Assembly (NCBI RefSeq): GCF_009766105.1
Contig: NZ_LMUH01000013.1
Coordinates: 336,346 to 400,345, forward strand
Direction: 5' to 3'
Length of the DNA stretch: 64,000 bases
Source of the DNA: Granulicella sp. S156
GTDB taxonomy: Bacteria; Acidobacteriota; Terriglobia; Terriglobales; Acidobacteriaceae
This document shows, piece after piece, positions 19,242 to 63,500 of the stretch (the stretch's first letter is position 1; every line of letters begins with the position of its first letter). Both the position numbers and the translations under genes were made by a program. The notes below the pieces were generated by a model, which worked only from the letters and a program-made list of their open reading frames with translations, did not search any database and was not told the DNA's origin.

Positions 19242-19316
19242 GGGCGCATAACTCAGCGGTAGAGTGCCACCTTCACACGGTGGAAGTCGTAGGTTCGAAT
19301 CCTGCTGTGCCCACCA
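19242..19316 (+). tRNA. tRNA-Val (anticodon CAC)
   Basis: A full cloverleaf is visible: acceptor GGGCGCA pairing with TGTGCCC (one G-U), D-arm with ACTCAGCGGTAGAGT, anticodon stem CCACC/GGTGG closing the loop TTCACAC (anticodon CAC, reading GUG), and T-arm GTAGGTTCGAATCCTGC. The discriminator A and CCA are encoded (19313-19316). No integrase or duplicated 3' end was seen nearby. Confidence 0.96.
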
Positions 19317-45263: not shown

Positions 45264-46016
45264 GTTTTCTCCAACGTCTTCCGATTGCAATGCTGTTTGC
45301 GCCAAAGAGAGACATCTCGTCCCCAAACGGGCGGTTCCCGGTATGAAGGCACGCAGTGTTTCTCGGTCCGTTCGTTGGCCGGTAAGATAACGACTCAACA
45401 CGTGTCTACAGAGCAGGCCCACTATGCGGGGCAAGCGGGCCACAGAGATATGGGAATCAAACGAGTAGCTTGTGGATCAAGCCATCAACGACACACATGC
45501 CCTGTCCCACCAGTGAGGAGATTGGAAGCTGGGACAACAATAACGGCCTTGTACGAATATTCGGCGCATCTCAACCAATCACATAGCACGATGATCATCT
45601 CGCCCGATATCAGGAGAGAAACGTGGACTCAGCTAACGAGTGAATTATTTAGGAGTGGAGAGTGATAACCCTGAACACTGTTGAGCCTGAATCAGGCCGC
45701 CAGTATCCGGATGTGGCTCAGCGTCAACTGCTCTCCGGAGACGGAAGAGCAACAACGACAAGTAAAGAATGGTTGAGGAGCCATGTATGGAAAGATATCT
45801 GGTGGCGGGCTTAAGGTCAAGATCAGAATGACTAACATTAGTCTCCAGCGTGACGCGATGGGCGATCTCTCCAATGCCAACTTTAGTTATCCAAGGTGGA
45901 GAAACTGCGTTACAACATGCGATCGATATAAAGAGTGCTCTGTAGATGATCGATTTCGTGCATTAAAAATGCGGGTATACCTTTTCGAAAGGTCAATGCC
46001 CTGAGTCTCTCCTCGA
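45264..46016. other. intergenic region upstream of TonB receptor 3
   Basis: About 750 bp. It contains the leftward receptor promoter (not resolved) and one small plus-strand frame with a ribosome-binding site, listed separately. The rest shows no gene. Confidence 0.4.
45662..45814 (+). CDS. possible small protein (50 aa), unrecognised
   Basis: GTG 45662 follows AGGAG (45651-45655) by 6 nt and opens a 50-codon frame rich in charged and aromatic residues, with a C-terminal HVWKDIWWRA. I do not recognise it. It could be a true small gene, a decayed fragment, or chance. Confidence 0.2.
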   Translation: MITLNTVEPESGRQYPDVAQRQLLSGDGRATTTSKEWLRSHVWKDIWWRA

Positions 46017-46205
46017 TTGACGCCCCTTCGGCTGATAGATAGCATCTACACATGGTTACAGTTCATAACTCCCGCGATTGTTGTCGTTTGTATTCTGTGG
46101 CGGGCGGAGCGTGGATACATTTCATCCGGAGTCATTGACTTCAGTCGACTTGCATAGCGATCTTCAAATCCCGCTCAGGCTTGGTGCCGGGTGGGTTTTC
46201 TTTTT
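46017..46205 (+). ncRNA. candidate small RNA C (promoter to terminator)
   Basis: TTGACG (46017-46022), a 17-bp spacer and TAGCAT (46040-46045) form a good promoter; a G/C-rich stem (46170-46174 with 46191-46195, further pairs inside) followed by an interrupted T-run to 46205 forms a terminator. The predicted transcript is about 155 nt with no coding frame of note. Architecture and length equal candidates A and B, but sequence similarity is limited to short blocks such as ATTGTTGT near the 5' half. It could also be a leader attenuator of the gene at 46289. Confidence 0.45.
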
Positions 46206-46288
46206 AACCTGAACCCGATGAGGTGAGCTTCCTCATCTTGCCGCTTGCAGTGTTCTTGTGTTTTTCTGAATCGCGCTCTGGAGGGTTC

Positions 46289-48160
46289 ATGCAGCGTTTC
46301 TCTTTCTTCGCCCTGGCAGTTTTGCTCGTCGGGTCCACGGTAGCTGGAGCCCAGCTTCCTACGCACGCCTCGAACGAGCAGATCTTACGCGCGATTCATC
46401 AAGCGAACGACCTACTTAACGTGAGCGAGCAGGCGTGGGTGGATAAGGCTTATTGCTACAACTGCCATCACGAGGCGATCAAGTTCCGGCTGGATCGCCT
46501 GGCAACGGAGCATGGCATTGCGGTCGACCGTGCCGCGGCGAACACGAATCTGCGGAAGACGCTTGGCCTGAAGAGTATCGAGGCGATCGGAAGCCTGGAC
46601 TATGCAGTGCAAGGTACCTATTTCGTCGATGCGCCGATCGTGGATGGTATCCAGCTGACCTCGCTTCATGATCTCGGTGTGCCGGGAAACTTATATCTGG
46701 CTGCATACGCGAAGCGAGTGGAGCGCTTACAGACACCCGCAGGCTACTGGGTAACTTCGGATCGGCGGCCTCCTGAGTCTGAGAGCTATTTCAGCGCCAC
46801 CGCCTATGCAATTGAGGCAATTCGCGACTACTTGCCGACGCGGATCGCAGTGGAAAAACGAAAGGTCATAGGGCGGGCGAAGCAGTGGTTGCTTACGGCA
46901 GCCCCGCGCGGGACCGAGGATGAGAGTATGCAGCTATTCGGCCTAAAGTCCTCGGATGCTTCGCAGAAGGAGATTGAGCCGATTGCAAGGCGGCTGATCA
47001 AAGAGCAGAGAGAGGACGGCGGATGGGCACAGATTCCAACGCGTGACAGCGACGCGTATGCCACAGGGCAAGCACTGGTCGCTCTGAATGAGTCCAGGGC
47101 TTTGAACGTAAAGGACCCCGTATACCGGCATGGGGTTGAATATCTCCTTAAGACGCAGGCTAAAGACGGTTCATGGCATGTAAAGACACGGCTGGTCGCT
47201 CCGGTTGAGTTGAGTCCGCCTCCCTTTGATTTCAAGTTTCCTTATGACGACGACTATGTAATCTCTGTTTTCGGTACGGAGTGGGCCACTCAGGCGCTCT
47301 TGTTGACCCAGCCGAAGGTGAATGTGACAGTGCCACTCTACACGGCATCGGACGACAGTGGGCTCTTTCCTACTGGCCCTCAACCGGACAACACATGGAT
47401 TGAGTCGGCACTCTTCGGTACCACGCAGGAGTTGAAGACACTGCTCGACAAGGGACTAAGCGCAAATGCCACGACACCGGGAGGAACTCCTCTACTGCAA
47501 TTGGTGGCGACCGATGCTGGGAAGACGAAGTTGGTTCTGGAGCGCGGCGCGGCGGTGAACACCCGAACAAAGAATGGCTTTACAGCACTGACCGTGGCGG
47601 CGAACTATCGCGGGACAACTGAGGTCGTGCGAACACTTCTCGATCATGGTGCTACGGTTGCTCGTGGGACGACTGACACAAGTGTTCCTTCGCCGCTATT
47701 CCTTGCTGCGGGCACCGGTGAGATCGAGAAGGCGCAGTTGCTGATCGCCCATGGCGATGGAGTCAACGAGAAATGGACGCGCCGGGGTGGAAGTTACTCC
47801 CCTTTGATCAATGCGATCGACATGGGCGATGCGCCGATGGTGCAGTTTCTAATCGACTCAGGCGCAGATATACGCGAGCGTGATCTGCGCGGACTGACTC
47901 CGCTGTCACGGGCAGTCCTCTCGAACTACAAGGATGTCGTGGCAATCCTGATTGCCAAGGGAGCAGACGTGAACGCTCCTGATGGAATCGGACTTACACC
48001 TCTGCATTATGCTTCGATGGTGGACTATGGAGAGACGGCGATTGTGCAGCAGTTACTCGCTGCCGGTGCGAAGCGCGACGTTAAAGATCCGGAGGGACAT
48101 ACTCCGGTACAGCTCGCGGAGAAGTTTCACTACGTGAAGTTAGCATCCGCTCTACGGTGA
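46289..48160 (+). CDS. exported heme-c motif / alpha-toroid / ankyrin-repeat fusion protein
   Basis: A 623-aa protein from ATG 46289 (GGAGG 4 nt upstream; a GTG at 46223 is less likely). The signal peptide ends VAGAQ (about 21). CYNCH at 56-60 is a cytochrome-c type heme attachment motif. Residues about 70-345 contain repeats of the squalene-cyclase/prenyltransferase alpha-toroid kind (AGYWVTSDRRPPESESYFSATAYAI, EDGGWAQIPTRDSDAYATGQALVAL, TQAKDGSWHV). Residues about 369-620 form ankyrin repeats (ELKTLLDKGLSANATTPGGTPLL, NGFTALTVAANYRGTTEVVRTLLDHGA, GLTPLHYASM, EGHTPVQLAEKF). The combination suggests a periplasmic scaffold with an electron-carrying head. No enzymatic residues of cyclases (DXDD) are evident. 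Function is unknown. Confidence 0.75.
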   Translation: MQRFSFFALAVLLVGSTVAGAQLPTHASNEQILRAIHQANDLLNVSEQAWVDKAYCYNCHHEAIKFRLDRLATEHGIAVDRAAANTNLRKTLGLKSIEAIGSLDYAVQGTYFVDAPIVDGIQLTSLHDLGVPGNLYLAAYAKRVERLQTPAGYWVTSDRRPPESESYFSATAYAIEAIRDYLPTRIAVEKRKVIGRAKQWLLTAAPRGTEDESMQLFGLKSSDASQKEIEPIARRLIKEQREDGGWAQIPTRDSDAYATGQALVALNESRALNVKDPVYRHGVEYLLKTQAKDGSWHVKTRLVAPVELSPPPFDFKFPYDDDYVISVFGTEWATQALLLTQPKVNVTVPLYTASDDSGLFPTGPQPDNTWIESALFGTTQELKTLLDKGLSANATTPGGTPLLQLVATDAGKTKLVLERGAAVNTRTKNGFTALTVAANYRGTTEVVRTLLDHGATVARGTTDTSVPSPLFLAAGTGEIEKAQLLIAHGDGVNEKWTRRGGSYSPLINAIDMGDAPMVQFLIDSGADIRERDLRGLTPLSRAVLSNYKDVVAILIAKGADVNAPDGIGLTPLHYASMVDYGETAIVQQLLAAGAKRDVKDPEGHTPVQLAEKFHYVKLASALR

Positions 48161-48164
48161 GATT

Positions 48165-48181
48165 GGCGGAACGCCTTTTTA
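48165..48181 (+). terminator. short hairpin with T-run after ankyrin fusion gene
   Basis: GGCG-GAA-CGCC is followed by TTTTT, four bp after the stop codon. The stem is short, so termination may be partial. Confidence 0.5.
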
Positions 48182-48294
48182 CATTCGCTGAGCGAAGTGC
48201 TGTGGTCTATCGGGCGCTCATTGCCCAATATCCATATCAGTCAACTTTCCGTTGTGTCCCTGACTTGAGCAAATTATTCAACTGCTGGGCATCT

Positions 48295-48330
48295 ATGCCT
48301 GACAACAACGAGGACAAAGCATATGCCTGA
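48295..48330 (+). other. 11-codon leader frame overlapping metN start
   Basis: ATG 48295 encodes MPDNNEDKAYA and stops at 48330, eight bases inside metN. Its first codons (ATGCCTGAC) duplicate the metN start, so it may be a local duplication or a translational coupling leader. Confidence 0.25.
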
Positions 48331-49444
48331 CGACGCAAGATCTTTTCCCCAACTCGATCATCGGGAGATCTCGGTTCCAACACCGCCTCCGGCCGTGTTG
48401 CTCGAGAACCTCACGAAACGTTACCAGCAAGGCTCCAATTGGTCGAATGCGCTCTCTGGCATTAGCCTGAGCGTATCGAAAGGTACGATTCAGGGCATTA
48501 TCGGCTTCAGCGGCGCAGGCAAAACCACACTACTGCGGTGCATCAGCCGTCTGGAGCTTCCTGATGAAGGAAGAGTACTGATTGATGGAGCTGACTTGGC
48601 CAATATGAACGGGACGCAGCTACGATCTGCCCGGCGCCGGCTCGGCGTGGTCTTCCAACAGCTTCATCTGTTTCGTTCGCGTACCGTGGCACGGAATATC
48701 GCTCTGCCTCTGGAACTTGCTGGATCGAGTCCAGAGGCAATCGACGAACGAGTGACGGAGTTGCTCGCCTGGTTTGGTCTGCAGACAAAAGCGGACGACT
48801 ACCCATCGCAGCTTTCCGGCGGACAACAGCAACGAGTCGCCATCGCCCGCGCTTTGGCGACGAAGCCGGCAGTCCTCCTAAGCGATGAGCCCACCTCTGC
48901 GCTCGATCCGGAGACGACTGCATCTGTGCTGGAACTTCTGCGCCGGGTCCGCGATGAACTTGGAGTAACGATCCTTCTTATTACGCACGAACTCAGCGCT
49001 GTCCGAGCAATCTGTGACCGCGTCGCTGTGCTCGACCAGGGCGCTATCGTCGAGGAGGGGCCTGTCGAAGAGGTGTTGCTGCGTCCTGCTAGCAGGACGA
49101 CACAGCGCCTGTTGGGACGCAACTTGGGTGTCGAACATCTGGCTGAATATCTGGGCGGAAAGACAGCACACCAGGACTCGATCTTCCTGGAATTGCAGTT
49201 TCTAGGCCAGAGTGCTACGAGCCATGTCCTTTCGACCCTGGTTCGCACCATCGATGTCACCGTGAACATTCTGCGCGCCGATATTGGAGCACTGAACCGG
49301 TCAACCTATGGTTTGCTCGTTGTCGAACTCAGTGGTGCGACGGGAACGCTGGAACAGAGCATAGGATTTCTCGAAGCGCATGGAGCTGTCGTGACACAAA
49401 TTGATCCCTGGTCTGAAGCAGAAACAAATGGGAGGCCGGAGTGA
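48323..49444 (+). CDS. metN: methionine ABC transporter ATP-binding protein
   Basis: A 373-aa ATPase driving D/L-methionine uptake. Walker A is GFSGAGKTT, the signature LSGGQQQR, Walker B VLLSDEPTSALD, and the switch His sits in LLITHEL. The C-terminal NIL domain (about 290-365, ELQFLGQSATSHVLSTLVRTIDVTVNILRADIG) is the methionine-sensing regulatory domain specific to MetN. A 30-residue N-terminal extension precedes the usual start. GAGGA lies 9 nt before ATG 48323. The stop overlaps the permease gene by 4 bp, showing tight coupling. Confidence 0.93.
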   Translation: MPDDARSFPQLDHREISVPTPPPAVLLENLTKRYQQGSNWSNALSGISLSVSKGTIQGIIGFSGAGKTTLLRCISRLELPDEGRVLIDGADLANMNGTQLRSARRRLGVVFQQLHLFRSRTVARNIALPLELAGSSPEAIDERVTELLAWFGLQTKADDYPSQLSGGQQQRVAIARALATKPAVLLSDEPTSALDPETTASVLELLRRVRDELGVTILLITHELSAVRAICDRVAVLDQGAIVEEGPVEEVLLRPASRTTQRLLGRNLGVEHLAEYLGGKTAHQDSIFLELQFLGQSATSHVLSTLVRTIDVTVNILRADIGALNRSTYGLLVVELSGATGTLEQSIGFLEAHGAVVTQIDPWSEAETNGRPE

Positions 49445-50955
49445 AAGAGCTACTGCAACTGCTTTGGGAGCCTACCTTGCAGACCATTGCGATGGTCGCA
49501 GTATCTGCGTTGATCAGTGGAGTAGGTGGGACCGTACTTGGCGTTTTGTTGGTCGTCACGGAGCAAAGCGGTGTGTTGCCAGCGCCGTGGTTGAACCGCT
49601 TCCTGAACACACTCACAAACATCGGCCGCAGCATCCCCTTCATCATTTTGATGGTCGCCATTATCCCTTTCACTCGTTGGGTCGTGGGGACATCGATTGG
49701 AACGACGGCGGCGATGGTGCCGCTGGTGGTTGGAGCCATCCCTTATGTCGGACGGCTGGTGGAAGGTGCGCTTCGCGAGGTGAACCGCGGCGCGATTGAA
49801 GCGATCCTCACGATGGGTGCTACCCCGTGGCAGGTCATCCGCAAAGCATATCTGCCAGAGGCAGTTCCCGCGCTAATTCGAGCTTTCACCGTAGTCACGA
49901 TCACTCTGGTCAGCTACTCGGCGATGGCTGGTACGGTGGGTGGCGGAGGCCTGGGTGATCTGGCTATTCGCTATGGCTACCAGGGATTTCGTCTCGACAT
50001 CATGGTGGTAACAGTCATTGTGCTGATCATGATGATCCAGGGGATTCAGTTTTCAGGCGATATCCTCGCGCGGCACTTCGAACGCACCGGGAAAGCTGGC
50101 GCAATAGGAGCACTGCAGCGGCAACGCTGGTGGAAGATACCTCCTCGATATCTTCCTGTAGTGCGTTGGGGGACTCTCGGTATCCTTCTAGTTGGAATAC
50201 TTGCGACTGTTCTTCATGTGCACTCGGCGGTACTCCACAAGCCTCTGCGCGTCGGCGTAAATCCTATTCCACACGGAGAGATTCTCCAGGCGGTGATGCC
50301 GATTTTGGAGAGGGAAGGGATCCACGTGCAGATCATCTATTTCAGTGACTATATCCAGCCAAATCTGGCATTGGCCTCAGGGGATATCGATGCGAACCTC
50401 TTTCAACATGTCCCTTTTATGGACCGCTTCAACCGGGACCACGGTACGAATATCATCGCGGTGGCCAAAATCCATATCGAACCACTCGGACTCTATCCTG
50501 GGCGCATAAAGACGCTCAGCGCATTGCCTGATGGTGCAATCATTGCGATTCCAAATGACCCGGTCAATTTGGGGCGAGGGCTACTTCTGCTGCAGTCCGC
50601 AGGATTGATTAAGCTGCGCACTGGAACCAATACGAACACAACGCTTGAGGATGTCTCTCAGAACCCAAAGCATCTGAAGATCAGCGAGCTCGAGGCGGCA
50701 CAGTTGCCGCGTTCGCTTCGCGATGTCGACGCCGCTGTGATCAATACGAACTATGCTTTGGCAGCAAAGTTGAATCCGCTCAAGGATGCGATCTTCCTGG
50801 AAAACTCTGCATCTCCCTATGCCAATGTACTGTCCACTGTGCCCGGAAAAGCAACCGATCCCCGCATCCTTGCTTTGGTGAAGGCATTACAGAGCCCTAT
50901 CGCTCGGCAATTCATTCAACAAAAGTATCAGGGCGCAGTCCTCCCGGCATTCTAG
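49441..50955 (+). CDS. methionine ABC transporter permease fused to substrate-binding protein (MetI-MetQ)
   Basis: A 504-aa fusion. Residues 1-215 are a MetI-type permease with five or so helices and the coupling-helix EAA-like motif AILTMGATPWQVIRKAYLPEAVPALI. After a linker and one more membrane helix (about 244-262, WGTLGILLVGILATVL), residues 270-504 form an NLPA/MetQ-type binding protein (LRVGVNPIPHGEILQAVMPILEREGI, FSDYIQPNLALASGDIDANLFQHVPFM, AIIAIPNDPVNLGRGLLLLQSAGLI, DAAVINTNYALAA). In most bacteria MetQ is a separate lipoprotein. GTG 49441 overlaps the metN stop. Both domains are complete, so the fusion should be functional, with the receptor permanently tethered on the outer face. 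Confidence 0.93.
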   Translation: MKELLQLLWEPTLQTIAMVAVSALISGVGGTVLGVLLVVTEQSGVLPAPWLNRFLNTLTNIGRSIPFIILMVAIIPFTRWVVGTSIGTTAAMVPLVVGAIPYVGRLVEGALREVNRGAIEAILTMGATPWQVIRKAYLPEAVPALIRAFTVVTITLVSYSAMAGTVGGGGLGDLAIRYGYQGFRLDIMVVTVIVLIMMIQGIQFSGDILARHFERTGKAGAIGALQRQRWWKIPPRYLPVVRWGTLGILLVGILATVLHVHSAVLHKPLRVGVNPIPHGEILQAVMPILEREGIHVQIIYFSDYIQPNLALASGDIDANLFQHVPFMDRFNRDHGTNIIAVAKIHIEPLGLYPGRIKTLSALPDGAIIAIPNDPVNLGRGLLLLQSAGLIKLRTGTNTNTTLEDVSQNPKHLKISELEAAQLPRSLRDVDAAVINTNYALAAKLNPLKDAIFLENSASPYANVLSTVPGKATDPRILALVKALQSPIARQFIQQKYQGAVLPAF

Positions 50956-51041
50956 GCAACTATAGGATGAGAGGTGAATAAGTGAACACTTTCGGGATAT
51001 AAGGTTTCAGCTGTCGCTTCGACGCAAGACCTGGCTATTGA

Positions 51042-51228
51042 TTGACAACTTATTAGTGCGGTAGTAAGTTTCGATTATGCGATTTATTCCCAGAACATAT
51101 TGTTGTTCGTCCTGCATCTCCGCTGGGGAACGGGAAAATCGTGTTCAACCGACTCGTATGTGATCGCATAGATCCATATCGTGGTTGACAGACCCGCCCA
51201 GTGACTCTTCCGGAGCGGGTTTTCTGTT
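51042..51228 (+). ncRNA. candidate small RNA A (promoter to terminator)
   Basis: TTGACA (51042-51047), 17 bp, TAAGTT (51065-51070) make a strong promoter; the terminator stem ACCCGC/GCGGGT (51192-51197 with 51215-51220) is followed by TTTCTGTTT. The predicted transcript starts near 51077 and is about 150 nt. It is clearly homologous to candidate B: shared blocks include ATTCCCAGAA, TATTGTTGTTCG, GCATCTCCGCTGG, GGGAAA, ATCGTGT and ATGTGATCGC, in the same order, and both carry a GATCG...GATC hairpin before the terminator. No coding frame is shared. It precedes the thioredoxin-fold gene at 51499 by about 270 bp. Confidence 0.6.
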
Positions 51229-51498
51229 TAAGTCGACCTCAAAATCTCATCGCCTTTCGCAAGGGATACGAGGATCTATCCCGCACTTCGAGAACGGTCT
51301 TCGGGTAATTCCCGGCCAGCCTGGGCATTTCGTGTTCCAAGTTTTCGCTAAGCGGCATATGCGTTCTTAAGGATGAGCTTTCCGTCCCCAAGAACTAGTT
51401 TGCTGTCGCGAGTTTGCAAATGTGGAAGCACACAGGAGTCACAGCCGAGCCGTCAAGAGCAGTAGTTCACGATCATCCACCAGAAAGGAATTCATCCA
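51229..51498. other. spacer between small RNA A and thioredoxin-fold gene
   Basis: 270 bp with no supported gene; it should contain the separate promoter of the gene at 51499. An AAAGGAA ribosome-binding site lies at its end. Confidence 0.4.
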
Positions 51499-52884
51499 GT
51501 GAGAATAATTTCGCGAAGTATAGGTCTCGCCCTCATTCTTGCAGCCTTCGGTTCATCCGGAGCCGTTGCTCAATCTAGCGATACGCAGCTGCCCATCGAC
51601 GGACGCTGGGATGCCAGCCTCATCAATAATGGGCCGGCGGTCCCGTTTCGGCTCGACATCGCAGGATCGGGACCAACGCTTAGAGGTACTTTCTACGATG
51701 GTTTCAAGCCCTATGAGGAAACGACCAATGCGTCGTACCAGGACGGCATACTTACGCTAAAAGCCGAGCACTATCTCACGACCATCACCGCGACCCTGAA
51801 GAACGGAGAGCTTGCCGGTGACGTGGTCTTACAGGGCCCAGGATTTCACATCAACTATGGTTTTGAAGCGACTCGTCATGCGGACTCGACGGTAAAACTT
51901 GAAAATGTGCCTTCCATTGCGGGAGTGTGGGAGCTTCCACTTGCGTCTACAAGTTCGAAAGGAGAGAAATCTTTCCATCTCATCGTGAGGCAAAATGGAG
52001 CAGATGCCGAAGCATCGATCCTTCGCATTGATGGGGATACCGGAGCCTACAGCGGTACCTACAAAGACGGCAAATGGATTCTGAGTCACTTTGATGGATC
52101 GCGCCCTGGCGTGATTGAAGTTTCCGCTAAGAAAGATGGAACACTGGAAGTAGTCCAACATAACGAGGCTCTCAAGAGAGCTATCGAAGGAGACAGCCCT
52201 GAGACAAAAACCGCGAGTGCGAGTGCCGGTCAGTATGACGCAGCGCCGAGTGCGGCTGTCACCGGTGATAGGCTTATTGCCTATCGCCCGGAAGTGGCTC
52301 GCGCCAAAGGCTTTCCTGAACCCGACAACTTCGATACCCACACAACCATCCGCAATGCGAATGAGAAGTTCGCCTTCAGCTTTCCCGATGCCAGCGGCAA
52401 GCTAGTCTCCAGCGATGATCCGCGCTTCAAGGGCAAAGTGGTTCTTGCGATCGTGACCGGCACCTGGTGCCCTAACTGCCACGATGAAGCACGCTTCCTC
52501 GTTCAACTCGACAAGAAGTACCGTGACAAAGGTCTGGCAATCGTAGCTCTCGACTTCGAAGAACCCGAGGAGCAGGGCAATCTTACCCGCGAGCGTGCCT
52601 TTGTGAAGGAATATGGCGTCAAATACACCTACTTGATCGCAGGAGCCCCTTCCGAAATGTGGGAGAAGGTTCCTCAAGCGGTCAATCTGAATACTTGGCC
52701 GGCAACCATCTTCGTGGGACGGGATGGTCTCGCTAAGGGAATCCACTCCGGCTTTGCCTCTCAGGCCAGCGGCGAATTCAATAGTCAACTACAAGAGGAG
52801 TTCACGGCCAAGATCGAAAAGCTTCTCGCAGAAAACGCGACGAGCCAGAGTGCATCTGCTGCAGTGTCGCCTTTGAAGCCCTAG
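51499..52884 (+). CDS. exported thioredoxin-fold (TlpA-like) protein, paralog 1
   Basis: A 461-aa protein starting at GTG 51499. A signal peptide (ends GAVAQ, about 25) is followed by two related beta-rich regions (about 30-130 and 140-230, with GRWDASL/FRLDIAGSGPTLRGTFYDG and AGVWELPL/FSGTYKDGKW-like strands), then a thioredoxin fold (about 280-440) with the active site TWCPNCH (Cys324 and Cys327) and the cis-Pro region NTWPATIFVGRDG. TlpA-like proteins reduce periplasmic disulfides or act in cytochrome c maturation. It is closely related over its whole length to the protein at 59487. Low-complexity linkers flank the domains. Partner proteins are not obvious, but several c-type heme proteins are encoded within 10 kb. 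Confidence 0.85.
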   Translation: MRIISRSIGLALILAAFGSSGAVAQSSDTQLPIDGRWDASLINNGPAVPFRLDIAGSGPTLRGTFYDGFKPYEETTNASYQDGILTLKAEHYLTTITATLKNGELAGDVVLQGPGFHINYGFEATRHADSTVKLENVPSIAGVWELPLASTSSKGEKSFHLIVRQNGADAEASILRIDGDTGAYSGTYKDGKWILSHFDGSRPGVIEVSAKKDGTLEVVQHNEALKRAIEGDSPETKTASASAGQYDAAPSAAVTGDRLIAYRPEVARAKGFPEPDNFDTHTTIRNANEKFAFSFPDASGKLVSSDDPRFKGKVVLAIVTGTWCPNCHDEARFLVQLDKKYRDKGLAIVALDFEEPEEQGNLTRERAFVKEYGVKYTYLIAGAPSEMWEKVPQAVNLNTWPATIFVGRDGLAKGIHSGFASQASGEFNSQLQEEFTAKIEKLLAENATSQSASAAVSPLKP

Positions 52885-52914
52885 TAGTACCGCTGGTCTA
52901 GCAGCGCAGTATAG

Positions 52915-52953
52915 GAGGGATGCTCGGTCGAGCCCGGCCAGCGAGCATCCCTC
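52915..52953 (+). terminator. intrinsic terminator after thioredoxin-fold paralog 1
   Basis: A 12-bp perfect stem (52915-52926 with 52942-52953) is followed by TTTGTTT. Confidence 0.8.
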
Positions 52954-53049
52954 TTTGTTTGGTTTGAATCGCGTCGAGAGCATTGGCACGTGCCGCCTTC
53001 AACTCAGCCCAATTTGCGAGCCAATGATTGCCCTTGACCACGACTCGCC

Positions 53050-53121
53050 GCGGTCTGCCCGGCCTCTTTTATTCCGTTTTTGCCGCTGATCAACTGATAC
53101 AAAAGAGGCAGGGCAGACCGC
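53050..53121. repeat. long interrupted inverted repeat upstream of M1 peptidase gene
   Basis: GCGGTCTGCCC (53050-53060) pairs with 53111-53121 and CCTCTTTT (53063-53070) with 53101-53108, separated by a 2-nt internal mismatch, around a 30-nt loop. It ends 40 bp before the M1 peptidase start. It could be a 5'-UTR structure, an upstream terminator, or a MITE-like fragment. Confidence 0.5.
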
Positions 53122-53161
53122 TCGATCCAACTGGCAATTTCCATTCGACAAGAAAGAGGAC

Positions 53162-55255
53162 ATGTTTGTGAACACTGTGCATCGAATTGCATCCTTTTTG
53201 CTGGCCATTCTTCTGTGTGGCACTTTCGCAAATTCAGCCGTTGGGCAGGCTTCGCCATCTTCGCATTCCACGTATGATCCGCGCGTCACATTTGCTCCGT
53301 TGGCGCTGCCCGACCCAGCCACTCAGTATCGCTCCGTCTCCGGCGCGCCGGGCGCATCTTATTGGCAGAACGCGGCCGATTACGTGATGCACGCTACGCT
53401 CGACCCCGTCGCCAAAGTTCTTACCAACGACGAAGTCATCACCTATACCAACAACTCATCTGACTCCCTCGACAGCCTCTGGATTTACCTTGAACAGAAC
53501 ATCTATCGAAGGGATTCCCGCTCTAACAATCTCGGCAATACCGGCTTCGCTCGTCCACCCCGTGCCGGCCAGACCGGCCCTCCACCGCCTGCTCGCGGAG
53601 ATAACCATACCGAAGGTATAGTGTTCGACTCCGTCGAGGTTGGCGTTGTTGCCGCAACAACTCGCTGGTCCAAGGCCGACTACATCGTTGACGACACCCG
53701 TATGCAGGTACGGCTTGGCACGCCCTTGAAGCCACACGGCGCACAGTTACGCATTCACATCAAATATCACTACGCGATTCCTGGCATTTGGGGAGGACGC
53801 ACATCCTGGGGAGCAGCAGAGCATGGCGAGATCTATGACATTGCTCAGTGGTATCCCCGTATGTGCGTCTACGATGACCTTCACGGGTGGGACACGCTCC
53901 CCTACATTGGCGCGGAATTCTATCTCGAATATGGCCACTTCGACTACTACGTCACCGTTCCCTGGAACTTCATCCTCGCCGGTTCCGGCGAGCTCGTAAA
54001 TCCGGCCGAAGTTCTCACCAAAACCCAGATAGATCGTCTCGAGCAGGCTCGCCACTCCGATAAGACGGTCTATATCCGCACCCCGGAAGAGACAACCGAT
54101 CCCGGTAGCCGTCCTAAACAGAGCGGCACACTTACCTGGCACTTCCAGATGGATCACACTCGCGACGTAGTCTTCACCGCTTCGCCCACGTTCGTATGGG
54201 ATGCCGCGCGAATCAACCTCCCGGCTAAAACCGATGTAGGTGATGATCCGCCCAACTCGCTCCCCGTCGGCAAAATTCCCCTCGCGATGTCCGTCTATCC
54301 CGTCGAGAGCGTTGGCCAGGAAGGCTGGTCTCGTTCCACTGAATATGTCAAGGATTCTGTAGAAGAGTTTTCCCGTCGCTGGTATCCCTATCCTTGGCCT
54401 GCAGCCATCAACGTGGCGGGCTTTTCTACCGGCATGGAGTATCCCGGCATCGTCTTCGATGGAATACACGACCAGAGCAAGATCCTCTTTTGGATTACCG
54501 CTCATGAGATCGGACATGACTGGTTCCCAATGATTGTTGGTTCCAACGAACGCCGCTGGGCCTTCATGGACGAAGGCTTCAATACGTTCATTGATATCTT
54601 TGAGTCCGACGACTTCGAACACGGTGTCTACGGCCCCAAGCGCGATAGCGAATACTCCGCGGGTGGAGAACCGTCAGACACGATCCTCAAAGTTTTAGAC
54701 AATCCCGACGCGCCCAACATTCTCACTCGCGCCGACGGCTTCACCGGGGCTCTCGGTCACCCAGTTCAATATTTCAAAGGGGCCTATGGAAATGTGCTGC
54801 TCCGCGAGCAGATTCTCGGCCCTCAGCGTTTTGATTACGCCTTCCGTCGCTATATTCGGGAGTGGGCTTACAAACATCCTTCTCCTTCCGATTTCTTCCG
54901 CACCATGGAGAACGAAGGCGGTGAAGACCTCAGCTATTTCTGGCGTGGATGGTATATGCACAACTGGACCCTCGACTTGGCCGTTGAGTCCGCCAAGTAT
55001 GTCAATGACAATCCAAAGGAAGGTATCGCTGTCGTAGTCTCGAATCTACGGCCGCTGGTTCTTCCTGCCACGCTTCAGGTTGCCTATAAAGATGGCACTA
55101 CAGCTCGTATCCGTATCCCAGCGGAAGCGTGGCTTTCCAAAGGCACCGGCACCTTTATCTTCAAAGAGGGAAAGCCCGTGGACAACATCACCGTCGATCC
55201 GGATCATCTCCTCCCGGATGATGACCGCAGCAACAATGTACTTAAAATGCCATAG
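53162..55255 (+). CDS. exported M1-family zinc metallopeptidase
   Basis: A 697-aa aminopeptidase-like protein. The signal peptide ends SAVGQ (about 29). An N-terminal beta domain resembles the M1 bowl (VMHATLDPVAKVLTNDEVITYTNNSSDSLDSLWIYLEQN). The catalytic site is H448-E-x-x-H452 with Glu471 eighteen residues later in MDEGFNTF; the exopeptidase GxMEN motif appears as TGMEYPG, a divergent form seen in M1-like family members. It should cleave peptides in the periplasm or outside the cell. AGAGGA precedes ATG 53162. The C-terminal all-helical domain is shorter than in full aminopeptidase N. It stands alone between hairpins. Confidence 0.88.
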   Translation: MFVNTVHRIASFLLAILLCGTFANSAVGQASPSSHSTYDPRVTFAPLALPDPATQYRSVSGAPGASYWQNAADYVMHATLDPVAKVLTNDEVITYTNNSSDSLDSLWIYLEQNIYRRDSRSNNLGNTGFARPPRAGQTGPPPPARGDNHTEGIVFDSVEVGVVAATTRWSKADYIVDDTRMQVRLGTPLKPHGAQLRIHIKYHYAIPGIWGGRTSWGAAEHGEIYDIAQWYPRMCVYDDLHGWDTLPYIGAEFYLEYGHFDYYVTVPWNFILAGSGELVNPAEVLTKTQIDRLEQARHSDKTVYIRTPEETTDPGSRPKQSGTLTWHFQMDHTRDVVFTASPTFVWDAARINLPAKTDVGDDPPNSLPVGKIPLAMSVYPVESVGQEGWSRSTEYVKDSVEEFSRRWYPYPWPAAINVAGFSTGMEYPGIVFDGIHDQSKILFWITAHEIGHDWFPMIVGSNERRWAFMDEGFNTFIDIFESDDFEHGVYGPKRDSEYSAGGEPSDTILKVLDNPDAPNILTRADGFTGALGHPVQYFKGAYGNVLLREQILGPQRFDYAFRRYIREWAYKHPSPSDFFRTMENEGGEDLSYFWRGWYMHNWTLDLAVESAKYVNDNPKEGIAVVVSNLRPLVLPATLQVAYKDGTTARIRIPAEAWLSKGTGTFIFKEGKPVDNITVDPDHLLPDDDRSNNVLKMP

Positions 55256-55282
55256 CAGCCGCGAGGCATTGGCAGGCATGCG

Positions 55283-55326
55283 GACAAGAAGAAGCGGCGA
55301 ATTTACATGCGCCGCTTCTTCTTGTC
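55283..55326 (+). terminator. intrinsic terminator after M1 peptidase gene
   Basis: A 17-bp perfect stem (55283-55299 with 55310-55326) with a 10-nt loop lies 28 bp after the stop. Confidence 0.8.
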
Positions 55327-55797
55327 TTCATGCAGGTCGTTTCCTCAGCAAACACGGCAATTGATTGCAGAATCAGGACAATTGCGCTATCGTCGAGCAA
55401 ACGCGATGTTGACGAAAATTCCAACGCGGCTCTCCCTTTGTTGTCCCTGCCTGGGCTAACATCTCTCGTCCTTGGCACCATACTTTCCATTTGGTGATGT
55501 CAACCCATCCATAGCACGATTGTGCCTTCGCGATAGGTGGATTTAATCTCTCCGTCCATTCCAGGAACGATATGCCGTATTTCATTCACCCTTCGGTCGA
55601 TTCCCCCGTCTACCAATGCCATCTCGTGTGTTGTCCAGCGGCTTTCTGCTAATCCTTTTCCTTGCGCTAGCAGCGAACGCATAGGGATCGCGACCACGAG
55701 TATTGACTTCAGTGACCTGGATCGGTTTCCGCCATAAGTCGTTGTGCAATGCTCCACTTTATTCAGCAAATACAAATAGACGTAAACCAACAACTCA
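55327..55797. other. 471-bp spacer before CHRD gene
   Basis: No supported gene on either strand. It presumably carries the CHRD gene promoter; no specific site was assigned. Confidence 0.4.
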
Positions 55798-55810
55798 AAG
55801 GAGAAGTGAA

Positions 55811-56254
55811 TTGAAAAAGTTAAATAGTTTGATTCGAACCGTTGTTGCAGCCTCGACCCTGGCGTTTGTGTCAATCGCAGCGCACGCCGCAACGATTACC
55901 CTGAAGGCTGACCTGAAAGCCTCTGCAGAAGTTCCTGCCAAAGATAGTACTGGTACAGGGACTTTGACCGCTACGCTAGATACTGACACCAATGAGTTGA
56001 AGTATCACATCGAGTTCAGTGGATTGACCGGCCCTGTTGTCGCAGCGCATTTTCATGGACCGGCAGCTGCGGGGACGAATGCGAAACCGCAGATTCCGAT
56101 CAAGACCAGCCCTCTCGCAAGCCCTATTGATGGGAAAGCGACCATAACACCGGAACAAGCGAAGGATCTGGTGGATGGTAAGTGGTATTTCAACCTTCAT
56201 ACGTCGGCAAACCCCGGAGGAGAAATACGCGGCCAACTTGTGAAATCCGAGTAA
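55811..56254 (+). CDS. small exported CHRD-domain protein
   Basis: A 147-aa protein starting at TTG 55811, 7 nt after AAGGAG; the frame remains open upstream but without conservation or signal. The signal peptide (LIRTVVAASTLAFVSIAAHAA) is followed by a single CHRD domain: LKASAEVPAKDSTGTGTLTATLD, LKYHIEFSGLTGPVVAAHFHGPAAAGTNA, and the C-terminal LVDGKWYFNLHTSANPGGEIRGQL. CHRD domains were named from the BMP antagonist chordin and occur in many exported bacterial proteins of unknown role; the HFHG and NLHT histidines could bind metal. It is flanked by hairpins and is probably monocistronic. Confidence 0.88.
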   Translation: MKKLNSLIRTVVAASTLAFVSIAAHAATITLKADLKASAEVPAKDSTGTGTLTATLDTDTNELKYHIEFSGLTGPVVAAHFHGPAAAGTNAKPQIPIKTSPLASPIDGKATITPEQAKDLVDGKWYFNLHTSANPGGEIRGQLVKSE

Positions 56255-56262
56255 TGGCCCAA

Positions 56263-56303
56263 AACACGGTGCGTAGGTTGCCTCGGTGCTTACGCACTGT
56301 GTT
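56263..56303 (+). terminator. hairpin after CHRD gene
   Basis: Arms at 56263-56275 and 56291-56303 (AACACGGTGCGTA with TACGCACTGTGTT) pair with one G-T, 8 bp after the stop. Confidence 0.6.
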
Positions 56304-56502
56304 CATTTCGAGGGCTGTCTTCTCCCGCCGCTCGCGCTGTATTCAGCATGAGGAGGTCGGTAGTCCTGTGACTTTGGTGCATTGTTCTTCTTCGCGGGCT
56401 CATTCACACTTTCGGTTGCGTGCGTAGGTTTGGGCACGGAAGGGATGCCAGAGGTCGGGCTCCGTCATGGTCCACCCCAAAATGAATTCAGGAAGGAATA
56501 GC

Positions 56503-56958
56503 ATGAATGCTCGCTACGCAATGATTCTCATTTTGGGCTGCGCCATATTTTCAATTGGCATAGGTGCCGCATCTCAAAGCCCAGGCAGTACCAAAGCGAC
56601 AAGCGATGCAGGTCCTTCCTCAAAAGCTGCACATCCCAAGCCAACGAACCTGAAGGTATTGCCGAAGAATCTCACCGGAGACGATATCGATAAGCTGATG
56701 CATCGGTATGAAAAGGACTTGGGTGTGCCGTGCGGATACTGCCATGAAGAGAATCCGCAAACCAAGCAGATCGACTTCGCATCCGACGAGAATCCAATCA
56801 AAGAGACGGCGCGGTCCATGATCTCGATGACCAATGACATCAACAACAAATACCTTGCACAGCTTGGGGATAGGCGGTATGCCGAACCTCTTACCTGCGG
56901 CAACTGTCATCAGGGACAGGTGCAACCTCCAACTTTTGAACCGAAGCCACAGAGATGA
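56503..56958 (+). CDS. small exported di-heme c-type cytochrome
   Basis: A 151-aa protein from ATG 56503, with AGGAAGGA just upstream; the frame extends to 56467 but the signal peptide (MNARYAMILILGCAIFSIGIGAAS) begins here. Two heme-c attachment motifs are present: CGYCH (77-81) and CGNCH (132-136), separated by a helix with NPIKETARSMISMTNDIN. The LTGDDIDKLMHRYEKDLGVPCGYCH layout resembles one half of the tetraheme photosynthetic reaction-centre cytochrome subunit, a fold often seen alone in acidobacterial proteins. It should carry electrons in the periplasm. It is followed by a DsbD-alpha-type gene. Confidence 0.88.
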   Translation: MNARYAMILILGCAIFSIGIGAASQSPGSTKATSDAGPSSKAAHPKPTNLKVLPKNLTGDDIDKLMHRYEKDLGVPCGYCHEENPQTKQIDFASDENPIKETARSMISMTNDINNKYLAQLGDRRYAEPLTCGNCHQGQVQPPTFEPKPQR

Positions 56959-57043
56959 GTGTTGTGATGGCCGTTCCTTGTGCTCGGCAGAGATAGAAAC
57001 ATACAAGATTGGAATTGAAATGATGATAGAAAGGGCAGCTCGT

Positions 57044-57541
57044 ATGAAGTTTCTACGAATTAGTTTTGGCCTTGCTTTGGGTCTGTTCCTTTGTACCGCT
57101 GGTGCTGCGCAGGCCCCGGTCCAGCCGGTGCAATGGGAAGGGTTGGCGGTACCGAAGACGCCTGTAAAACATGGAAGCAGGTTCGCGGTTGAACTGTCTG
57201 CGGAAATTCAAAACGGCTGGCACGTCTACGGTCTCGAGCAGGTTCCTGGCGGCCCAACGCCGCTGCGTGTAGCCCTGGAGGAGAATGATGCGGTCCAGAT
57301 CGCCGGTACTACGTCAGGCACAACTCCGATAAAGAAACAGGACCCAAGCTTTGAACTAGAGACCCAGTTTTATACGCAGTCATTCACGGTGCACATTCCC
57401 TTGCAGGTGAAACAACATTCAGCCACGGGCAAGCAATCAATCCCGGTGAGCGTTCGATTTCAGGCATGCAGCGACCGAACTTGCCTGCCCCCGAGAACTG
57501 CTCACCTATCCATACCGATTGAGGTTCTTGCTGGCACCTAG
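57044..57541 (+). CDS. stand-alone DsbD N-terminal (alpha) domain protein
   Basis: A 165-aa exported protein (signal MKFLRISFGLALGLFLCTAGAAQA). The body matches the DsbD-alpha immunoglobulin-like domain: VKHGSRFAVELSAEIQNGWHVYGLEQVPGGPTPLRV, FELETQFYTQSFTVHIPLQV, and VSVRFQACSDRTCLPPRTAHLSIPI, whose Cys pair (CSDRTC) corresponds to the redox-active cysteines that pass electrons to periplasmic partners. The membrane beta and thioredoxin gamma domains of full DsbD are missing. ATG 57044 is chosen (AAAGGG upstream); ATG 57020 and 57023 are alternatives. The missing modules could be supplied by another membrane reductase and by the thioredoxin-fold proteins nearby. Confidence 0.82.
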   Translation: MKFLRISFGLALGLFLCTAGAAQAPVQPVQWEGLAVPKTPVKHGSRFAVELSAEIQNGWHVYGLEQVPGGPTPLRVALEENDAVQIAGTTSGTTPIKKQDPSFELETQFYTQSFTVHIPLQVKQHSATGKQSIPVSVRFQACSDRTCLPPRTAHLSIPIEVLAGT

Positions 57542-57587
57542 CGGAGGAGGACGCGCAGTCTAACTCCCTCAGGTCGCAGCCTTGCGT

Positions 57588-57772
57588 TTGACAAATTGGA
57601 CAACTATGCATAGATTCGCTGTTATGGTAACTATTCCCAGAATGTATTGTTGTTCGCCAAGCATCTCCGCTGGCATATGGGAAATCGTGTGTACCTCTAA
57701 CTGATATGTGATCGCCAACGATCCGTACCGTTATCGATAACCCGCTCGCCAGCATTGCTGGAGCGGGTTTCT
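57588..57772 (+). ncRNA. candidate small RNA B (promoter to terminator)
   Basis: TTGACA (57588-57593), 17 bp, TAGATT (57611-57616) make the promoter; the terminator is AACCCGCTC/GAGCGGGTT (57739-57747 with 57761-57769) with an inner CCAGC-ATT-GCTGG stem and a TTTCTTGTTT tail. The transcript should start near 57623 and be about 150 nt. It shares promoter spacing, several ordered sequence blocks and length with candidate A 6.5 kb upstream, consistent with duplication together with the thioredoxin-fold genes. No Shine-Dalgarno-led reading frame is seen inside. Confidence 0.6.
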
Positions 57773-57812: not shown

Positions 57813-57848
57813 AAGCCCGCCAGCCTGACTGTAGCGGGCTTTCCTTTT
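57813..57848 (+). terminator. second terminator downstream of small RNA B
   Basis: AAGCCCGC (57813-57820) pairs with GCGGGCTT (57834-57841), followed by CCTTTT. It lies about 45 bp beyond the first terminator and 38 bp before the next gene, so it may catch readthrough or attenuate that gene. Confidence 0.65.
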
Positions 57849-57886: not shown

Positions 57887-59449
57887 ATGGGGCAGTTTAT
57901 CGTTGTGAAATCTCAAGATCCAATTCGAACAGGGATCGATGTTAATGATCCAGAGCTTCCTTCTTTGTGGGTGGGCGCAGGCCAATCCGCGCAAACGGTG
58001 ACGAGGACATCGAAGCCGATCATGTCAGCGGTGCACCGACTTGGTCTGGTCTCAGCAATATTTGTGGCACTCGCCGCTGCAGGTCTCGGTTGGCTGGCTC
58101 TGCGTGCTTATGGACAGATCGCGGTGCGGAATCAAGGGTATGTGCCCTATAGCGATGCGCCGATCAACTACCGATCAGAGGATCTAAGTGATCCGGTGGC
58201 CAAGCTGCAGCAACGGTTAGATCAAGGTAAAACGGCGTTGCTGTATGAACCCGAACACGGTTATCTCAAATCCGTACTGAATCTGTTGAAGGTACCTGTC
58301 GATTCGCAGACGCTGGTTTTCTCCAAGACAAGCTTTCAATACAAGAAAATTTCCCCAGAGCATCCTCGAGCCCTCTATTTCAATGACGACGTTTATGTCG
58401 GCTCGGTCCATGAGGGGAAAGCGATTGAAATAGTCTCCTTCGATCCAATGCAAGGGGCTATTTTCTATCTTCTTGACGAACATAAGGTAGAGAAACCTAC
58501 CTTTCAGCGAGCGGAACTGGACTGCACGCAATGCCATATTGCTGCGGGTACACGTGGAGTTCCCGGAGTGTTGTTGCGGTCTATCTATCCTACGACCACG
58601 GGGACCCAGGCGCCCAGTAGCAAATCTTTCATTACGGATCAAGACAGTCCGTTCAAGGATCGCTGGGGAGGGTGGTACGTTACCGGCAAGCTTGCTGGAG
58701 CGTCCCATATGGGCAATGCTGTTGTCGTCGACAAGCCAGCGACGGAACAATCGGACCAGGCTACTGTCAATAATCTGGTCGCACTCTCAAAACCGTTCGA
58801 TACTTCAACCTATCTGTTACCCGACAGCGATGTTGTGGCCCATCTTGTATTGGCACATCAGACGCAGATGCACAACCTGATCACGTTGACGAACTATAAG
58901 ACGCGGCTTGCTCTTTACGCGCAAGCTACGCAGAGCAAGGGCTCCGGTGTGCCGGCAGACACGTCCTTGCCGGAGAATGTGCGGCAGCAGTTCGAGCGGC
59001 CAGCGGAGCAGTTGCTGCGCTACATGCTTTTCGTCAACGAAGCACCCCTTTTCAGCGCGGGGTCTGGGAGTGTTGAAGGATCGTCCACATTTGCAAAAGA
59101 GTTCACTGAGCGGGGCATACGAGATCGGAAAGGGCGTTCGCTGCGCGACTTTGATCTGCAGACCAGAATCTTCCGGTATCCCTGCAGCTACCTCATCTAC
59201 TCCGAGTCCTTCGACACCTTACCCGAACCAGCCAAGGGATATATCTATCATCGCTTGCTGGAAATTCTGACAGGGCAGGATCAAAGCTCGGATTTCGCGA
59301 AACTGTCGGGAGAAGAGCGCCGAGCGATTCTTGAAATCTTGCTGGCAACCAAGCCCGGATTACCAGAGGAGTGGAGAGACTACGCCAAATCCAACCACCT
59401 CCACATTCAGATAGCAGGAAAGCGTTCTCGTTCCAGTTCACAAGGATAA
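57887..59449 (+). CDS. membrane-anchored mono-heme c-type protein
   Basis: A 520-aa protein with one N-terminal transmembrane helix (about 52-72, LGLVSAIFVALAAAGLGWLAL) and a large exported part. CTQCH at 213-217 is a heme-c attachment motif in ELDCTQCHIAAGTRGVPGVLLRSIYP. Flanking blocks such as YEPEHGYLKSVLNLLKVPVDSQTLVFSKTSFQ, RALYFNDDVYVG, and the C-terminal LRDFDLQTRIFRYPCSYLIYSESFD recur in uncharacterised acidobacterial and planctomycetal cytochrome-like proteins. ATG 58022, just before the helix, is an alternative start; neither has a convincing ribosome-binding site. The stop is 37 bp before the second thioredoxin-fold gene, so they are probably co-transcribed. Confidence 0.8.
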   Translation: MGQFIVVKSQDPIRTGIDVNDPELPSLWVGAGQSAQTVTRTSKPIMSAVHRLGLVSAIFVALAAAGLGWLALRAYGQIAVRNQGYVPYSDAPINYRSEDLSDPVAKLQQRLDQGKTALLYEPEHGYLKSVLNLLKVPVDSQTLVFSKTSFQYKKISPEHPRALYFNDDVYVGSVHEGKAIEIVSFDPMQGAIFYLLDEHKVEKPTFQRAELDCTQCHIAAGTRGVPGVLLRSIYPTTTGTQAPSSKSFITDQDSPFKDRWGGWYVTGKLAGASHMGNAVVVDKPATEQSDQATVNNLVALSKPFDTSTYLLPDSDVVAHLVLAHQTQMHNLITLTNYKTRLALYAQATQSKGSGVPADTSLPENVRQQFERPAEQLLRYMLFVNEAPLFSAGSGSVEGSSTFAKEFTERGIRDRKGRSLRDFDLQTRIFRYPCSYLIYSESFDTLPEPAKGYIYHRLLEILTGQDQSSDFAKLSGEERRAILEILLATKPGLPEEWRDYAKSNHLHIQIAGKRSRSSSQG

Positions 59450-62780: not shown

Positions 62781-63500
62781 CTTCATTCTCCTTTTTGGGA
62801 AATATTTGTGCCGTCGACGGCGATGCTTTTACCGGGAGTGTGAGGACGAAGTCGGTTCGATGAACGCGCTAGCCCAGACACACACCAGGACCGAGGTGGG
62901 CAGGTTAGGCAGCTTCAACTTAGATGGGGATAAAATGGCTGGGAACGTGTCAGCTACCGCGTCTGCAATTTCATTTTTTCCACCTGGAAGATCCCCATCG
63001 TTGAGATAGAGGTGCTTCCGCTTGAAACCGCCAATGTCAGATGCAACAACAATAGCGTGACGTGGTGGAAAGAACCATATTCAAAACTATATTCCCCCTT
63101 TGCAATGAACGACTATCCTCTAGAAATATATTTCGCCACGAACTCCGTCAGGCGTAGGGATCGCAGCACTTTTGATATTGCAAAAGCTGAGATTCCCTAT
63201 CTGTCTATCTACCGCTGGTAGTCTTCTATAGAACTGGTCATGCTTGAATGCGTTGAAGTCCTCAATTTTGAGTTCGAGTCCTCTTGAGTTGTGGAAGCGA
63301 ATGTTCTTTTGGATCGTGAGGACAACGTTTTCTATGCCCGATTCGTAGAGCACTCAGTGCTTCGCATCGCGAGGTTGGCTGAGAGCTTCCTCCAAAAGAG
63401 TGACGTGTTGAATGCCGGCTTGCCATTTTGGTCGGCATTACGCGGTACACTTTCGATTCCGTTTAAATAGAGAAGATGACGTGGTTTAGAGGGAGCAACA
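62781..63500. other. intergenic region upstream of the last gene
   Basis: 720 bp between divergent genes, with several short frames on both strands but none with a domain or ribosome-binding site I would trust. Both flanking promoters must lie here. Confidence 0.4.

Follow-up and report, generated by a model that had tools for sequence, protein, structure and literature searches.

A 64,000-nucleotide stretch of the genome of Granulicella sp. S156 (Acidobacteriaceae; contig NZ_LMUH01000013.1, positions 336,346 to 400,345), which we call the window, contains three units that run from a promoter to an intrinsic terminator: A (51042-51228), B (57588-57772) and C (46017-46205), all on the plus strand. 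A preliminary description of the window took these units for a family of small RNA genes. We found that each unit contains a short open reading frame (ORF) with tandem cysteine (Cys) codons, and we propose that the units are ribosome-mediated transcription attenuators that read the supply of cysteine. Given the sequence features described below, we consider this proposal very probably correct. A small RNA family was the wrong kind of element: an ATG and an in-frame Cys-Cys are kept while the rest of the unit diverges, and elsewhere the element precedes genes for sulfur assimilation.

From the promoter, the ORF, the Cys codons, the terminator, the complementarity between ORF and terminator, and the nearby genes, we infer the following mechanism. 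A ribosome would translate a short leaderless ORF in which Cys codons stand side by side around codon 9. If Cys-tRNA is plentiful, the ribosome would move on, the terminator about 150 nucleotides (nt) downstream would form, and transcription would stop; the RNA of about 150 nt would be this terminated leader. If Cys-tRNA is scarce, the ribosome would stall on TGTTGT. The coding stretch from about 15 nt beyond the stall would then pair with the 5' arm of the terminator, and RNA polymerase would read into the downstream genes. The window's four switches of this kind would govern an outer-membrane receptor, exported TlpA-like and heme-motif proteins and, perhaps, an importer of the MetNIQ type; together these would form one sulfur-scavenging island.

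Leaders in the window

Units A, B and C share a common plan: a -35 box (TTGAC(A/G)), a spacer of 17 bp, a -10 box (TAnnnT), an ATG 6-7 nt downstream, an ORF of 26-28 codons that has the Cys doublet TGTTGT within codons 9-11, and an intrinsic terminator. Our inspection of the sequence and a motif scan agreed with the promoters, terminators and coordinates in the preliminary description. The ordered blocks that it reported as common to A and B are also present, and they turn out to be parts of the short ORF, which it had overlooked: TATTGTTGTTCG encodes Tyr-Cys-Cys-Ser, ATTCCCAG lies within leader codons 4-6, and GCATCTCCGCTGG extends into the proposed antiterminator strand. In A, B, C, and the relatives with a recognisable promoter, the distance from the -10 box to the ATG is 6-8 nt. 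Transcription of each unit is predicted to begin at or beside this ATG, so that the mRNA would be leaderless. The parts of the leaders are as follows.

46017-46045, plus strand: promoter of unit C, TTGACG-17 bp-TAGCAT (sequence, motif scan)
46052-46138, plus strand: leader ORF of unit C, MVTVHNSRDCCRLYSVAGGAWIHFIRSH; Cys-Cys codons at 46079-46084; recovered by covariance model R2 and missed by R3
46096-46113, plus strand: candidate antiterminator strand of unit C (approximate); p = 0.040, best pairing 8 nt past the Cys codons
46170-46205, plus strand: intrinsic terminator of unit C
51042-51070, plus strand: promoter of unit A, TTGACA-17 bp-TAAGTT (sequence, motif scan); kept in the syntenic ortholog (L008)
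51077-51163, plus strand: leader ORF of unit A, predicted to be leaderless, MRFIPRTYCCSSCISAGERENRVQPTRM; Cys-Cys codons TGTTGT at 51101-51106
51123-51134, plus strand: putative antiterminator strand of unit A, CTGGGGAACGGG; about 15 nt past the final Cys codon, able to pair with the 5' arm of the terminator
51192-51229, plus strand: intrinsic terminator of unit A
57588-57616, plus strand: promoter of unit B, TTGACA-17 bp-TAGATT (sequence, motif scan)
57624-57704, plus strand: leader ORF of unit B, MVTIPRMYCCSPSISAGIWEIVCTSN; Cys-Cys codons at 57648-57653
57669-57681, plus strand: putative antiterminator strand of unit B, GCTGGCATATGGG; p = 0.008, begins about 14 nt past the Cys codons
57740-57776, plus strand: intrinsic terminator of unit B
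45692-45784, minus strand: fourth leader ORF, MAPQPFFTCRCCSSVSGEQLTLSHIRILAA, with ATG at 45784; -35 box TTGACC at 45820, -10 box TATCTT; a probable member

The fourth leader, a probable copy on the minus strand, had been overlooked in the preliminary description; our terminator scan found no terminator for it. Directly behind unit B, ahead of the next gene, there is a second terminator-like hairpin (57813-57847, plus strand, core 57822-57840).

We asked how often this arrangement would arise by chance, using a strict motif (at least 5 of the 6 positions of TTGACA, a spacer of 16-18, TAnnnT, and an ATG 6-8 nt below). The window has five such places, four of them with a Cys-Cys ORF; the fifth encodes MMRISE (30134, minus strand). 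Sixty order-1 Markov simulations of the window averaged 0.37 strict places, with zero Cys-Cys ORFs. Generic promoter and terminator scans did no better than shuffles (9 versus a mean of 10.0, and 11 versus 12.6). Across the window and 43 other loci (509,551 bases), we found 57 strict leaderless starts with 55 short ORFs, and 54 of these have Cys-Cys within residues 4-18 (the remaining one ends in CCGCC); most of the 43 loci were picked by models of Cys-Cys leaders, so this is a biased sample and the comparison with other doublets gives no more than an indication.

Relatives of the leaders and pairing with the terminator

Units A and B share 73% identity over 150 nt (BLASTN, E = 5.7e-14). A syntenic ortholog of A in another genome of the genus is 79% identical and again lies between MetI-MetQ-like and TlpA-like genes. 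With unit A as the query and E ≤ 0.001, BLASTN recovered no own-genome copy besides A itself and B, and the 100 other genomes searched gave a single ortholog. (Of five weaker matches in the own genome, we judged L003, L005, L006, and L007 to be chance on reading them.) We rank the idea that the units are transposon ends low, given the syntenic ortholog of A and the lack of further BLASTN copies in the own genome, although no search was aimed at transposon ends. A short motif pattern with two mismatches allowed occurred in 56 of 396 genomes from the phylum; we judged these hits to be largely background, given their scatter and the two mismatches that nearly all of them carry.

Covariance models reached further. 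Model R1, built from A, B, and one ortholog, found additional members in the genus, but what the aligned members have in common is a short reading frame and not the RNA sequence. The description's view of C as having the same architecture with little sequence identity held: R1 gave C only a remote score (8.9 bits, E = 0.86). C was left out of the training of two later models, R2 and R3, and R2 recovered it at E = 0.011, as a third place in the own genome outside its training set. Among 12 matches of R1, one (G001) lacks the Cys-Cys ORF. Another (L050; own genome, C4:832733-832883, minus strand) has the Cys-Cys ORF MNITHPNYCCSAMYRSGTRRTAIYISS and a terminator, with no recognisable promoter; it is perhaps a decayed copy. 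R3 had matches in 9 of 12 chosen genomes of the genus (E ≤ 1), at least 21 of 200 genomes of the family (E ≤ 0.01), and at least 12 of 250 genomes of the class (E ≤ 0.001), all 12 in the window's family; these counts are lower bounds, as the searches used filters that lose weak members.

Across members, the leader frames have about 12-40 codons. The tandem Cys codons are mostly TGTTGT near codon 9, and the pair starts at codon 7-13. We counted 59 distinct leader peptides (with leader L181 counted with two starts). Cys codons in the leaders are 177 TGT to 53 TGC, compared with 7 to 22 in 13 genes of the window, but this excess may in part reflect the models used for finding leaders. Outside Cys-Cys, the peptide is weakly conserved: between A and its ortholog, 9 codons have non-synonymous changes and 4 have synonymous ones (including the stop). 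(We left out the comparison of B with L199 because the ORFs differ by an indel.) We also noticed two Cys-Cys leaders in the own genome that point away from each other at a distance of about 80 nt (L191, 7074 on the plus strand and 6993 on the minus strand; C23:643948 and 644037), and similar divergent pairs at L112, L113, L179, L189, and L190.

A terminator was called in 26 of the 39 leaders that we scanned, including A, B, and C. For half of them (13 of 26), the best pairing partner of the 5' terminator arm begins 13-17 nt past the last Cys codon, just beyond what a ribosome halted at that codon would cover. Offsets in this group include 15 nt for A, 14 for B, 13 for G015a, 15 for G007a, 15 for G014a, 17 for G027, 17 for G007b, 16 for G015b, and 17 for L102. 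Compared with shuffles, the antiterminator gave p = 0.058 for A, 0.008 for B, and 0.040 for C (in an earlier run with a longer arm, 14/1000 shuffles for A and 55/1000 for C). Three held-out loci that were found via the downstream protein (L199, L202, and L249) have offsets of 14, 15, and 15 nt, with p = 0.006, 0.003, and 0.129. L202 and L249 are altered in both strands, with CTGACG/CGTCAG and CTGCCGA/TCGGCAG replacing CTGGCG/CGCCAG. Furthermore, the coding strand prefers its own terminator arm to those of other members (13 sequences, p = 0.006; two reduced sets, p = 0.011 and 0.021).

We also considered that the units might be a family of functional Cys-rich micropeptide genes that have their own terminators and regulate nothing. 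The short ORF does possess its own promoter and terminator. However, the peptide is weakly conserved (9 of the 13 codons changed between A and its ortholog are non-synonymous), the ORF is complementary to its own terminator arm, and the family is associated with sulfur-assimilation genes. We consider the micropeptide explanation extremely improbable.

Genes behind the leaders

As the preliminary description had noted, units A, B and C each lie ahead of a gene whose exported product is a redox protein or carries a heme motif (CxxCH). Its suggestion that the units regulate these genes in cis is supported by the anatomy of the units and by the genes that they accompany. The genes behind the leaders in the window are as follows.

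41571-45443, minus strand: outer-membrane beta-barrel gene behind the minus-strand leader (Pfam OMP_b-brl_4, CarboxypepD_reg)
46223-48160, plus strand: gene behind C, for an exported ankyrin-repeat protein that has a CxxCH motif
48323-50955, plus strand: methionine-type ABC importer between C and A, with a MetN-like ATPase (48323-49444) and a MetI-MetQ-like fusion (49441-50955)
51499-52884, plus strand: gene behind A, exported TlpA/ResA-like protein (Pfam AhpC-TSA/Redoxin; NCBIfam thiol-disulfide models below their cut-offs)
57887-59449, plus strand: gene behind B, 520-residue CxxCH protein with no Pfam or NCBIfam match
59487-60890, plus strand: TlpA-like paralog after the 520-residue protein's gene

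Loci that were chosen by their proteins, without regard to leaders, tie the family to sulfur assimilation. For the NIR_SIR domain (the enzyme family of sulfite and nitrite reductases), we drew on 28 genomes of the genus and obtained loci for 30 of 52 listed places; two (L301 and L303) were dropped because of short flanks. A Cys-Cys mini-ORF lies at -720 to -570 relative to the domain in 20 of the 28 loci, versus 3/27, 1/27, 1/27, 3/28, and 0/28 in other intervals, where this interval was chosen after seeing the data and no promoter was required. With regular bins, the mini-ORF is at -650 to -500 in 18 of 28 loci, versus 0-5 elsewhere. The own-genome copy (L285), with a GTG start, is among the 20. 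Similarly, 12 of 24 PAPS_reduct loci have a Cys-Cys mini-ORF, often very Cys-rich, at -350 to -200, while other bins have 0-2 of 22-24. Both sets come from related genomes, so their loci are not independent. Upstream of a PAPS_reduct (CysD-type) gene in the own genome (L310, at -330; C15:574782, minus strand) is the GTG-start ORF VEVMCIAGCCCPRPFGCC, which is likely an additional leader.

These loci also bear on the reading favoured in the preliminary description, that the units are free-standing regulatory RNAs of about 150 nt that act in trans. Such RNAs would fit the discrete promoter-to-terminator units and a fold whose stability exceeds that of shuffles (z = -2.8 and -3.1). But what stays constant, as the RNA sequence itself varies, is a Cys-Cys ORF in frame with an ATG at the predicted start; Cys-Cys mini-ORFs recur ahead of sulfur-assimilation genes that were picked regardless of leaders; and action in trans is superfluous for explaining the data. 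Nor is there a known RNA family here. At Rfam's gathering scores, the whole window has only a tRNA (at 19242), and no family matched A or B even at E ≤ 10, including the 6S and Acido-1 families that had been suggested for comparison, whose likeness to the units is that of a short terminator-ended RNA. (The sole match on C is a chance-level miRNA, E = 9.1.) We therefore view free-standing RNAs that act in trans as highly improbable.

Leaders from other loci precede a varied but recurring set of genes. TlpA/redoxin-like (AhpC-TSA) proteins are behind unit A and the leaders at L119, L121, L122, L126, L178, L182, and L184. Outer-membrane barrels (OMP_b-brl_4) are behind the minus-strand leader of the window and those at L109, L110, L111, L118, L120, and L181. 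Sulfatases follow the leaders at L118 and L194, and NIR_SIR enzymes those at L195 and L196. At L123, the leader precedes CysN and CysH, both above the NCBIfam cut-offs, with a CysD-like ORF, recognised by eye, between the leader and CysN. A YeiH-type protein is behind the leaders at L124 and L188; at L124, it is followed by a NIR_SIR-like protein and a CysG N-terminal domain. Other targets are a 1-Cys peroxiredoxin (L183 and L185) and, in the own genome, a protein with the metallo-beta-lactamase fold (L116). Targets for L108, L112, L114, L117, L125, L179, and L186 were assigned by eye only. At L118 (G024:C2:830000-846000), two leaders (CCC and CCCC) are arranged around four sulfatase genes and the outer-membrane barrel gene.

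Could the nascent Cys-Cys peptide sense a metal (copper or zinc) or thiol stress, instead of Cys-tRNA, and control redox and heme genes? Cys-Cys could bind metal, and redox or heme-motif proteins are behind A, B, and C. But little of the peptide is conserved beyond Cys-Cys, some leaders are just 12-codon ORFs that end in CCCCR or CCCSR, and relatives precede CysN/CysH, NIR_SIR enzymes, and sulfatases. We think that sensing of metal or thiol stress is very unlikely.

For the NIR_SIR enzyme, the solved chain nearest to the L195 protein is 1zj8, which is labelled as a probable ferredoxin-dependent nitrite reductase, NirA. This mycobacterial enzyme was reportedly shown later to be a sulfite reductase. 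Furthermore, several genomes of the genus with PAPS_reduct genes list a single NIR_SIR place, so that one enzyme would have to serve sulfate assimilation. We infer that the NIR_SIR enzyme behind the leaders is a sulfite reductase.

Several results weigh against attenuation by cysteine supply, or limit it. A called terminator is absent from 13 of the 39 leaders, which must work otherwise, probably by translational coupling or Rho; runs of three or four consecutive Cys occur in 8 of them. In the other 13 of the 26 terminator-bearing leaders, pairing begins outside 13-17 nt (at 8 nt in C). The antiterminator reached p ≤ 0.05 in just 10 of the 26, including L049, where a second terminator produced an artefact. 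Fixed-column covariation of the antiterminator showed no excess (81.9% paired versus 80.9% in shuffles), although fixed-column pairing exceeds that of slid versions (28-48%), and the register varies among members. The 1:2 (anti-antiterminator) pairing has no general support, with p = 0.037 for A and 0.077-0.98 for the other 12. Model R3 missed both the minus-strand leader and C (C at E ≤ 10). Only 10 of 30 NIR_SIR loci passed the strict promoter scan; of 24 PAPS_reduct loci a single one did, and that one is probably a chance hit. In a set of 79 loci for TlpA-like proteins, 71, including the proteobacterial and most acidobacterial ones, lack a Cys-Cys leader; of the 8 with one, 2 have it within 1200 nt upstream (76 loci have enough flank), 4 have it about 1.8 kb upstream, before the gene for the 520-residue protein, and 2 have it elsewhere. 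Finally, NCBIfam scored the NIR_SIR proteins of L195 and L124 higher as nitrite reductase/NirA (359 and 367 bits) than as sulfite reductase (201 and 199 bits), with all scores below the cut-off.

Some of the neighbouring genes deserve comment. The importer's domains are ABC_tran and NIL, and BPD_transp_1 and NlpA lipoprotein (Pfam); the best NCBIfam models are MetN, MetI, and MetQ, all below their cut-offs. Perhaps unit C drives these genes. The MetI-like permease and the MetQ/NlpA-like lipoprotein domain are fused in a single gene (49441-50955, plus strand). The gene for the 520-residue CxxCH protein sits between a Cys-Cys leader and a TlpA-like gene in the window, and similarly at L199 and L202; the gene order around the leaders at L199, L202, L205, and L207 resembles that at unit B. 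L113 has a counterpart of this protein, likewise without a family. Homologs of the TlpA-like protein (51499-52884) with 54-65% identity are found in contigs labelled Proteobacteria, with no leader in the locus, which suggests that the gene was transferred there alone. The product of 61992-62786 (minus strand) resembles, by eye, the DOPA-dioxygenase-like protein behind the L180 leader; the strict scan found no leader here.

Relation to known attenuators

In a classical trp-type attenuator, a leader ORF has tandem codons for the sensed amino acid, and the antiterminator and terminator are mutually exclusive. Most of the acidobacterial leaders scanned likewise have an intrinsic terminator between the leader ORF and the gene, and a putative alternative antiterminator that uses the 5' arm of the terminator. 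Unlike the trp-type, they are predicted to be leaderless, the antiterminator strand lies within the coding sequence, and a 1:2 pairing is not established.

We found no earlier description of Cys leader attenuators in Acidobacteria or Granulicella in the open literature, which is what we covered, and in the accessible text of one paper, almost no predicted attenuators in this group of soil bacteria have an assigned function (PMC2965389). Our proposal names a regulatory signal for acidobacteria. It also points to a possible function, sulfur scavenging, for families of exported redox, heme-motif, and outer-membrane proteins that annotation leaves blank. More broadly, the Acidobacteriaceae might run much of their sulfur acquisition (outer-membrane import, sulfatases, sulfate reduction, and thiol redox proteins) gene by gene via protein-free leaderless Cys-Cys attenuators. 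The terminator-bearing form, with its antiterminator inside the leader ORF, would be a new design, and the leaders would mark unannotated genes (the 520-residue CxxCH protein, TlpA-like fusions, and outer-membrane barrels) as parts of sulfur scavenging. Terminated leader RNAs or peptides might also act in trans, as the available part of one paper reports for peTrpL of Sinorhizobium (PMC7298713). We regard this broader picture as evenly poised between right and wrong.

The uORFC-8-2 motif, upstream of cysS in Rhodobacterales, carries two tandem Cys codons in an upstream ORF, behind which comes an intrinsic terminator, and ribosome-mediated attenuation was proposed for it (PMC8632094). Many of the leaders described here are alike in having tandem Cys codons in a short ORF and then an intrinsic terminator. 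According to the portion of that paper available to us, which does not mention a leaderless start, uORFC-8-2 has its Cys codons at 14-15, uses mainly UGC, has cysS as its single target, and belongs to Alphaproteobacteria. Here, the first Cys is at codon 7-13, and no cysteinyl-tRNA synthetase was found among the downstream proteins that we scanned.

The leaders are also proposed to work in the manner of the leaderless polycysteine ORFs of mycobacteria, which, in the accessible parts of three reports, attenuate downstream genes according to the cysteine supply (PMC9031893, PMC9094748, PMC13236596); the M. smegmatis case is termed translation attenuation (PMC13236596). Candidate Cys leaders of Mycobacterium cys operons were described, in the part of the paper available to us, as being without obvious terminators (PMC1262725). 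In both groups, a short ORF with contiguous Cys codons lies upstream of genes for sulfur acquisition (here, those of the relatives), with the leaderless start predicted here from sequence alone. Unlike the mycobacterial ORFs, the acidobacterial leaders are in another phylum, many have an intrinsic terminator with a putative overlapping antiterminator, and their additional targets include an outer-membrane barrel, TlpA-like proteins, and the 520-residue CxxCH protein. This comparison suggests that leaderless cysteine attenuation is not restricted to Actinobacteria.

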